Shown: piece after piece, positions 746-24,948 of the stretch
How the letters are laid out: every line of letters starts with the position of its first letter
How positions within the stretch are numbered: the first letter of the stretch is position 1
Source of the DNA: an uncultured Anaerolineae bacterium
Lineage (GTDB): Bacteria > Chloroflexota > Anaerolineae > Anaerolineales > Villigracilaceae
DNA length: 64,000 nucleotides
Assembly: GCA_903846015.1 (NCBI GenBank)
Contig: CAIMZS010000300.1
Coordinates: 1 to 64,000 of the forward strand
Direction of reading: 5' to 3'
Translations under genes and position numbers: made by a program
Notes under the pieces: model-generated
What the model was told of the DNA's origin: nothing
The model's input: only the letters and a program-made list of their open reading frames with translations
Databases searched by the model: none

Positions 746-1663
746 ATGAGACTTCTTGTCACAGGCGCATCCGGTCTTCTGGGCCTCAATCTTTCATTGC
801 TGGAAGTTAAAAAGCATGACATCGTGGGTTTTGATCGCAGCAAGCTGGCAGGCACACCCTTCCGGATTTACAGGAATGACCTGCTCGCTCATCAAGCAGT
901 CGATCATATTCTGGATGAAATCAGGCCAGATGCAGTTATTCATACCGCCGCGAATGCCAATGTTGATTCATGTGAATTTGATCCGCAGGGTGCGCATCGT
1001 TTGAATGCCGAACTCCCAGGTGAACTGGCATGGGCTTGTGCGCAGCGCAGTATCCGCCTTGTTCATATCTCAACGGACGCCGTCTTTGATGGCACAAAAG
1101 ATGGCGTGTATTCCGAGACGGATACGCCCAACCCGTTGGGTATTTATGCTCAAACAAAACTGGATGGTGAGCGAAATGTTCTCTCTGTAAATCCGAATGC
1201 AATTGTGGCCCGGGTGAACTTTTTTGGCTGGAGTCTTCAGGGTAACAGGTCGCTTGCGGAATTTTTTTTCAACAAGCTTTCCAAGGCGGAGCAATGCAGC
1301 GGCTTTACGGATGTTTATTTTTGCCCGCTGTTTGTTGGCGATTTGGCTGAGACCCTGGTCTTGATGTTAGAGAAGAATCTCGTCGGGTTGTATCATGTTA
1401 CCGGGTCAAAGGCCCTCTCCAAATTTGATTTTGGGCAGTGCATTGCGGACAAGTTTGGGTTTGACCCTTCACTGGTTATCCCCATATCTGTGGAAGAATC
1501 TGGTTTAATAGCGCGTCGTTCCCATAACTTGCGCCTTTCCATCCACAAGTTATCCACAGATTTAGGCCAGGAAATACCCGATGTATCCACAGGTATTTTG
1601 AAGTTTTATGCACAGGCTCAACAGGGTTATCCACAGAAAATGCGTAGTTATCAACAGGTTTGA
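746..1663 (+). CDS. RmlD-like NAD(P)-dependent sugar reductase/epimerase
   Basis: Extended short-chain dehydrogenase of 305 residues. The N-terminus carries the Rossmann motif GASGLLG (about residues 7-13), 'ISTDAVFDG' supplies the catalytic Ser/Thr region, and YAQTK (Tyr134, Lys138) is the SDR Tyr-x3-Lys. The C-terminal 'NLRLSIHKL' and 'ILKFYAQ' match the end of RmlD (dTDP-4-dehydrorhamnose reductase) proteins. It probably reduces or epimerises a nucleotide-linked keto sugar for the surface glycan; no RmlA, RmlB or RmlC is visible, so the exact substrate is open. The last 120 bases carry six DnaA-box-like nonamers, and the final 18 or so residues lie beyond the conserved family end. Confidence 0.82.
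   Translation: MRLLVTGASGLLGLNLSLLEVKKHDIVGFDRSKLAGTPFRIYRNDLLAHQAVDHILDEIRPDAVIHTAANANVDSCEFDPQGAHRLNAELPGELAWACAQRSIRLVHISTDAVFDGTKDGVYSETDTPNPLGIYAQTKLDGERNVLSVNPNAIVARVNFFGWSLQGNRSLAEFFFNKLSKAEQCSGFTDVYFCPLFVGDLAETLVLMLEKNLVGLYHVTGSKALSKFDFGQCIADKFGFDPSLVIPISVEESGLIARRSHNLRLSIHKLSTDLGQEIPDVSTGILKFYAQAQQGYPQKMRSYQQV
1539..1656 (+). other. Phased cluster of DnaA-box-like nonamers
   Basis: Six nonamers resembling the DnaA box TTATCCACA lie on the same strand: CCATCCACA at 1539, TTATCCACA at 1550, GTATCCACA at 1583, TTATGCACA at 1606, TTATCCACA at 1627 and TTATCAACA at 1648. Start-to-start distances are 11, 33, 23, 21 and 21 bp, close to whole helical turns. They overlap the 3' end of the RmlD-like gene but fall in different codon phases (LST, VST, GYPQ, SYQQ), so a repeated peptide does not explain them. 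The boxes are visible in the sequence; binding by DnaA is inferred. Confidence 0.55.
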
Positions 1664-24420: not shown

Positions 24421-24948
24421 TTAGAAGCCGGTTGATGCAAACCAGGATCCTGCTGGGCTGGTTACGAAGATGATTGGTGCGATGCATGGATTGGGCAGGA
24501 CAAGGGTTTCTTTGATGGTGGCATTGCCCATAGCGTTGGCTGGGAAAGAACTGGATGAAATATTGGTAGTGACCGGGTTTCCGTTTTCGTCCATGCTCAT
24601 GCAGCTCACAATCGCTTTGAAACTGGGGCTGGGGTTTGTCCCGCCTCGGCCAGCCGCGATGGCAGCCGGATCATTCGGATCGATGAGCAAACCTCTTACG
24701 ATGATTACAAGCCGGCCATTGGATCTTAGTTCGCCTTCCGCTGAACTGATAACCCAGGGTAAGCCTCCACCCGGCACACCGCGGATGGCATTCGTTGCGC
24801 CGGTATAGGGTCTGGGTACGCCAAGCATACCGCTGAATTCGAGCATTTTTGTTTCTCTGGCGGTGACTGGGGTTGCTGCCGAGGCCGCAAAGAAGATTAT
24901 GCTCAGGACCAGGGCCAAAGCAATTGAAACGGGAAAGAGTTTTTTCAT
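24421..24948 (-). CDS. Exported protein of unknown function
   Basis: 175 residues with a clear signal peptide: 'MKKLFPVSIALALVLSIIFF' then AASAATPVTA, cleavage likely near residue 24-30. The mature part is small, rich in Gly, Pro and Ser, and has 'NGRLVIIVRGLLIDPN', 'FKAIVSCMSMDENGNPVTTN' and 'LVLPNPCIAPIIFVTS'. Two cysteines could form a disulfide. The pattern suggests a single beta-sandwich domain; I do not recognise the family. It is transcribed away from the ECF sigma gene at 25106, so both may be driven from the 157-bp gap between them. Confidence 0.75.
   Translation of the reverse strand: MKKLFPVSIALALVLSIIFFAASAATPVTARETKMLEFSGMLGVPRPYTGATNAIRGVPGGGLPWVISSAEGELRSNGRLVIIVRGLLIDPNDPAAIAAGRGGTNPSPSFKAIVSCMSMDENGNPVTTNISSSSFPANAMGNATIKETLVLPNPCIAPIIFVTSPAGSWFASTGF

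Follow-up and report, generated by a model that had tools for sequence, protein, structure and literature searches.

An array of DnaA boxes at the 3' end of rmlD

In an uncultured Anaerolineae bacterium, the codons at the 3' end of an RmlD-type sugar reductase gene (rmlD) contain an array of DnaA-box-like nonamers which, judging from comparative sequence analysis, is probably a DnaA-binding locus outside oriC that is selected as DNA, lies on the origin side of the chromosome, and restrains re-initiation by holding or inactivating DnaA. The window (the whole stretch of 64,000 nucleotides analysed) belongs to contig C300 of this genome's assembly (G000; 6.5 Mb in 662 contigs). Within it, rmlD is followed by a neuB-like gene and then a glycosyltransferase gene, and is preceded by an open frame at 338-739 whose partial match to Polysacc_synt_2 (PF02719) is confined to profile positions 142-212, as if it were what is left, or a piece, of a gene for a sugar epimerase/dehydratase. 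For rmlD, matches were found in 97 of the 101 genomes searched.

The original prediction had described six nonamers at 1539-1656 on one strand, and their coordinates, sequences, and single-strand placement all proved correct, as did the claim that they fall in different codon phases (1, 0, 0, 2, 2, 2). All six lie within the last 125 bases of rmlD (Table 1), and a seventh box with one mismatch (TTATCCCCA) is found at 1476, outside the span first described. The accompanying claim that the boxes share one face of the helix holds for the last three (steps of 21 and 21 bp, at 10.5 bp per turn) but not for the first three, which are approximately 70-140 degrees off. Boxes 1 and 2 form a double box with 2-bp spacing, and a CCACA half-box is present 2 bp 5' of box 2 in 27 of 30 orthologs; box pairs spaced by 2-3 bp are bound by DnaA of Escherichia coli and are its preferred arrangement in vivo (PMC11317965). 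The codons of box 5 (GGT TAT CCA CAG) are nearly frozen across the 30 aligned orthologs.

Table 1. Coordinates in the window of rmlD and of the boxes in its 3' end
Feature	Position	Strand	Sequence	Match	Remarks
RmlD-type NAD-dependent sugar reductase gene	746..1663	+		PF04321 RmlD_sub_bind, E=9.9e-62	305 aa; array at 3' end
Box 1	1539..1547	+	CCATCCACA	nonamer, 2 mismatches	weak
Box 2	1550..1558	+	TTATCCACA	nonamer, 0 mismatches	perfect
Box 3	1583..1591	+	GTATCCACA	1 mismatch	TTTTCCACA in several relatives
Box 4	1606..1614	+	TTATGCACA	1 mismatch	mostly TTATACACA in relatives
Box 5	1627..1635	+	TTATCCACA	0 mismatches	perfect; present in 30/30 orthologs
Box 6	1648..1656	+	TTATCAACA	1 mismatch	TTATGCACA, TTATTCACA, TTATCCACA, or TTTTCCACA in relatives

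The array is the densest box cluster of the window (sliding score of 13 on the plus strand versus a maximum of 3 on the minus strand), and the window as a whole contains 26 near-boxes versus 13 expected, a number reached in none of 100 shuffles. Genome-wide counts were obtained by pattern searches plus sampled stretches. TTATCCACA occurs 85 times in the 6.5-Mb assembly versus 27 times for its reversed control, and the pair pattern TTATCCACA-N8-30-TTATNNACA occurs at only two sites, the array and a second cluster on contig C58, the control pattern matching nowhere. Equal box density throughout the genome, which had been named in advance as speaking against the array, was therefore not observed, and these counts rule out a generally high box density. 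Several near-consensus boxes within a few hundred base pairs, above chance, are what is generally expected of a DnaA-box cluster outside oriC, and the array has them.

Distribution across Anaerolineales and the possibility of a transcriptional role

We surveyed 80 named Anaerolineales loci over a stretch beginning 220 bases ahead of the stop codon and ending 300 bases past it. At least two boxes were present in 79 of them, at least three in 69, and at least five in 31; the commonest step between boxes was 21 bp (142 steps), most box variants fit TTWTNCACA, and the array continued past the stop codon in 38 loci. Orthologs from other families of the order carry zero to three boxes and often none, which indicates that the array took shape within this family or close to it. 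Several family members do not have the gene (G015, G021, G024, G038, G043, and G060), and no replacement array was found in these genomes, only an oriC-like pair or no pair; the function of the array must therefore be dispensable or replaceable. A further TTATCCACA cluster with 12-bp steps was observed on a 15-kb contig of G052 (L070 5726-5812; C6, about 13.7 kb), which is distinct from both oriC and the rmlD array and possibly belongs to a small replicon.

The main rival of DnaA titration is that DnaA on the array acts on transcription, either by forming a roadblock or terminator where rmlD ends or by regulating the glycan genes that follow, so that envelope glycan synthesis would be tied to replication state. 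A complex of DnaA with its box is able to block a transcribing RNA polymerase in E. coli, and the boxes nearly all point with the gene (357 in sense versus 3 in antisense orientation over the 80 loci). Many loci also run directly into neuB, the largest group of downstream genes. However, what lies downstream differs from locus to locus: 31 have neuB, 19 encode an unrelated small membrane protein, 8 have a gene of a third type, and others have singletons of various kinds. The array, by contrast, stays with rmlD whichever gene follows. Because the downstream genes differ, the idea of a promoter serving one conserved downstream gene is weakened, and arrays of up to nine boxes would seem to exceed what a roadblock needs. 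A transcriptional role is thus considered rather unlikely, though it deserves more weight than any of the other rivals discussed below.

A likely oriC at spoVS

The second cluster of G000 is intergenic (C58:24500-24790; likely oriC at 24491-24787, about 6490-6790 of L001) and adjoins spoVS (C58:23982-24227). It contains inverted box groups and the stretch TTATCCACATATCCACAGGCCCTACTACAATTACTATATATATATA, which comprises a box pair, a run of DnaA-trios (CCCTACTAC), and an AT-rich tract. The combination of box(es), DnaA-trios, and an AT-rich tract is known as the basal unwinding system, or BUS (PMC8287927). The same BUS-type element was found at the spoVS cluster in G002, G023, G045, G049, G052, and G054, and by pattern in further genomes; an exact 15-base pattern was too strict for this search (3 of 61 genomes), but a looser one worked. 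The spoVS-linked cluster is therefore likely to be oriC.

The C58 cluster has the same head-to-tail box pair at 20-21 bp as the array, and since both loci share it, the simplest view is that one protein reads the two. DnaA domain IV (PF08299) had no match in the G000 assembly, which is 97% complete, but all 14 relatives and order members that were searched have one, so that the absence of dnaA probably reflects an assembly gap. The DnaA proteins of relatives have a standard domain IV with GGRDH[TS]T. It is conceivable that a DNA-binding protein other than DnaA uses the direct repeats of TTATCCACA-like nonamers, since other initiators likewise bind iteron-like 21-bp direct repeats. However, the nonamer agrees exactly with the bacterial DnaA consensus, most variants follow the degenerate form given above, and the likely oriC has the nonamer again at equal spacing, which makes a different protein quite improbable.

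Could the array itself be the chromosomal origin, or a second active one? That it is the densest box cluster of the window and that the genome has just one other pair site might suggest so, and the original prediction had left the choice between oriC and a regulatory DnaA site of the datA or DARS type. Nevertheless, no DnaA-trio or BUS was seen at the array loci of the genomes examined, whereas the spoVS-linked cluster has one in most, and the array is without an AT-rich unwinding tract and without inverted box groups. In G018, a relative closed into one contig (4.40 Mb), the AT skew switches sign at 440-550 kb and switches back near 2.36 Mb; the spoVS cluster, at 505 kb, lies inside the first turn, and no turn is found at the array (150 kb), about 355 kb away. 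GC skew was weak in G018 (cumulative minimum at 0.66-1.0 Mb) and AT skew clearer, while the skew of G049 was noisy, with no clear turn at the spoVS cluster. Because the BUS-type element is at the spoVS cluster and the skew turn of G018 near it, the array is rejected as oriC, and its being an origin of any kind is very improbable; the regulatory part of the prediction is well supported by conservation at the codon level. The gene dnaA is at 3.07 Mb in G018, and in relatives the spoVS-linked cluster is far from dnaA.

The array lies on C300 and the likely oriC on C58, that is, away from each other in G000. In eight genomes both loci are on one contig, at distances of 73 (G052), 107 (G016), 155 (G049), 197 (G102), 355 (G018), 358 (G101), 417 (G023), and 465 kb (G103), a range of 73-465 kb in which contigs bias toward short distances, only G018 being closed. 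On the strength of one closed genome and these contigs, the array is probably origin-proximal.

Conservation of the array as DNA

We aligned 30 genes, namely rmlD of the window and 29 relatives with 59-75% protein identity. The orthologs are from Anaerolineales (Chloroflexota) assembled from metagenomes, among them records named Ca. Desulfolinea nitratireducens and Ca. Villigracilaceae. Boxes were in register in all 29 relatives' orthologs, which were those examined first. Among 157 columns with a conserved amino acid, the 11 most codon-frozen were all in boxes or inter-box spacers; the gene-wide median of the majority-codon fraction was 0.6. In the last box, the amino acid varies (YQQ, YAQ, YSQ, YPQ, YTQ, and FPQ, with Q/A/S/P/T at the varying residue) while the DNA stays a DnaA-type box. 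Comparison with relatives, which had been proposed as a check, thus reveals boxes conserved beyond codon needs, and the absence of boxes where the protein is kept, which would have counted against the array, was seen at one locus only (L180) and not in the other 79 of 80.

That the C-terminal FYTQ, GYPQ, and SYQQ, which follow at 7-residue steps, are encoded by box-like DNA through mere coincidence is almost certainly wrong: YxQ residues do recur every 7 residues and the protein motif is partly invariant, but synonymous-codon shuffles within each gene, keeping protein and codon usage, seldom recreate boxes (on average 6.4 boxes and never more than 15 over 1000 trials, versus 97 observed), boxes extend past the stop codon and outside the protein in the 38 loci mentioned above, and L180 keeps the rmlD protein motif yet has lost its boxes to decay (TTATCCTCA and TTATCAATA). 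Codon shuffling and this natural control together rule out a protein-driven coincidence. An informal look also gave no support for an overlapping reading frame (ORF 1608-1853), considering that boxes pass the stop codon in so many loci; at other loci, the alternative frame is merely a stop-to-stop stretch running into the next gene, whichever gene follows. Conservation of the array by selection on the DNA itself therefore appears well supported by the aligned sequences.

Relation to known DnaA-control sites and proposed function

DnaA-box clusters outside oriC are of an already known kind. In E. coli, the action of datA needs IHF binding and consists of IHF-dependent stimulation of DnaA-ATP hydrolysis, whereas DARS1 and DARS2 reactivate ADP-DnaA with the help of IHF and Fis. 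Like the array, datA is a DnaA-box cluster away from oriC, and it lies on the chromosome's origin side, as the array probably does. Several high-affinity boxes in one locus are typical of datA, and the array, judged by sequence match, likewise combines two perfect boxes with near-consensus ones. However, datA is non-coding (PMC12371093, PMC4585315), in contrast to the array, which lies inside the rmlD reading frame and is built on 21-bp same-strand steps. The proposed role of datA is to lower active DnaA after initiation (PMC5295017). In Bacillus subtilis, six DnaA-box clusters (DBCs) outside the origin are oriC-proximal, as the array may be, and their joint loss is reported to lead to early initiation (Okumura 2012, cited in PMC5295017); these six are dispersed, whereas the array is found once per genome and invariably in the 3' end of rmlD. 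DARS1 and DARS2 are likewise DnaA-box loci outside oriC that regulate DnaA (PMC5295017), but nothing at the array indicates action in their direction, reactivation. The likely BUS-type oriC at spoVS resembles the array in its TTATCCACA pairs at 20-21-bp steps and differs from it in its trio, AT-rich tract, and inverted box groups. A search of the open-access literature found nothing on oriC or DnaA-box clusters of Anaerolineae or on the rmlD array. What is new here is that the array sits in the codons of one particular gene, that its nucleotides are conserved throughout the family, that it follows a single-strand design with 21-bp steps, and that it occurs in this phylum.

Taken as sequence evidence, a role of the array as a regulatory DnaA-binding site appears well supported. 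We infer binding by DnaA from the biology of this protein, by analogy and with the standard domain IV of the relatives in mind, and we infer likewise that DnaA occupies the array and affects the timing of initiation, by titration or by ATP hydrolysis. Under the proposed DnaA-control function, DnaA would assemble head-to-tail on the 21-bp-spaced boxes and on the 2-bp-spaced double box, an arrangement also present at the likely oriC, and would be held or inactivated there soon after duplication of the locus. Free or ATP-bound DnaA would then fall once the array had been copied, and re-initiation would be restrained, in a mode of action that may resemble that of datA or of oriC-proximal DnaA-box clusters. 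Origin-proximal boxes are known to titrate DnaA in E. coli (PMC12371093). In B. subtilis, DnaA sites within open reading frames may be empty in vivo despite being bound in vitro (rplB, PMC4447404); frozen codons would not be expected of such an empty site. It is also possible, though on balance unlikely, that the array is a dedicated DnaA-control locus in the codons of a cell-surface sugar gene which couples envelope glycan expression to initiation via DnaA occupancy. If true, one stretch of DNA would be both a protein code and a replication regulator.

The array hypothesis can be tested with purified DnaA alone, even though the organism is uncultured. A DnaA-type site appears to have been long maintained inside a coding sequence, whose codons are apparently constrained by DNA binding. 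Little is known of how replication is controlled outside E. coli, B. subtilis, and a handful of further models, and for one large uncultured family the present analysis supplies two concrete loci: the spoVS-linked cluster as the likely oriC and, at rmlD, an accessory DnaA-box array that is conserved.
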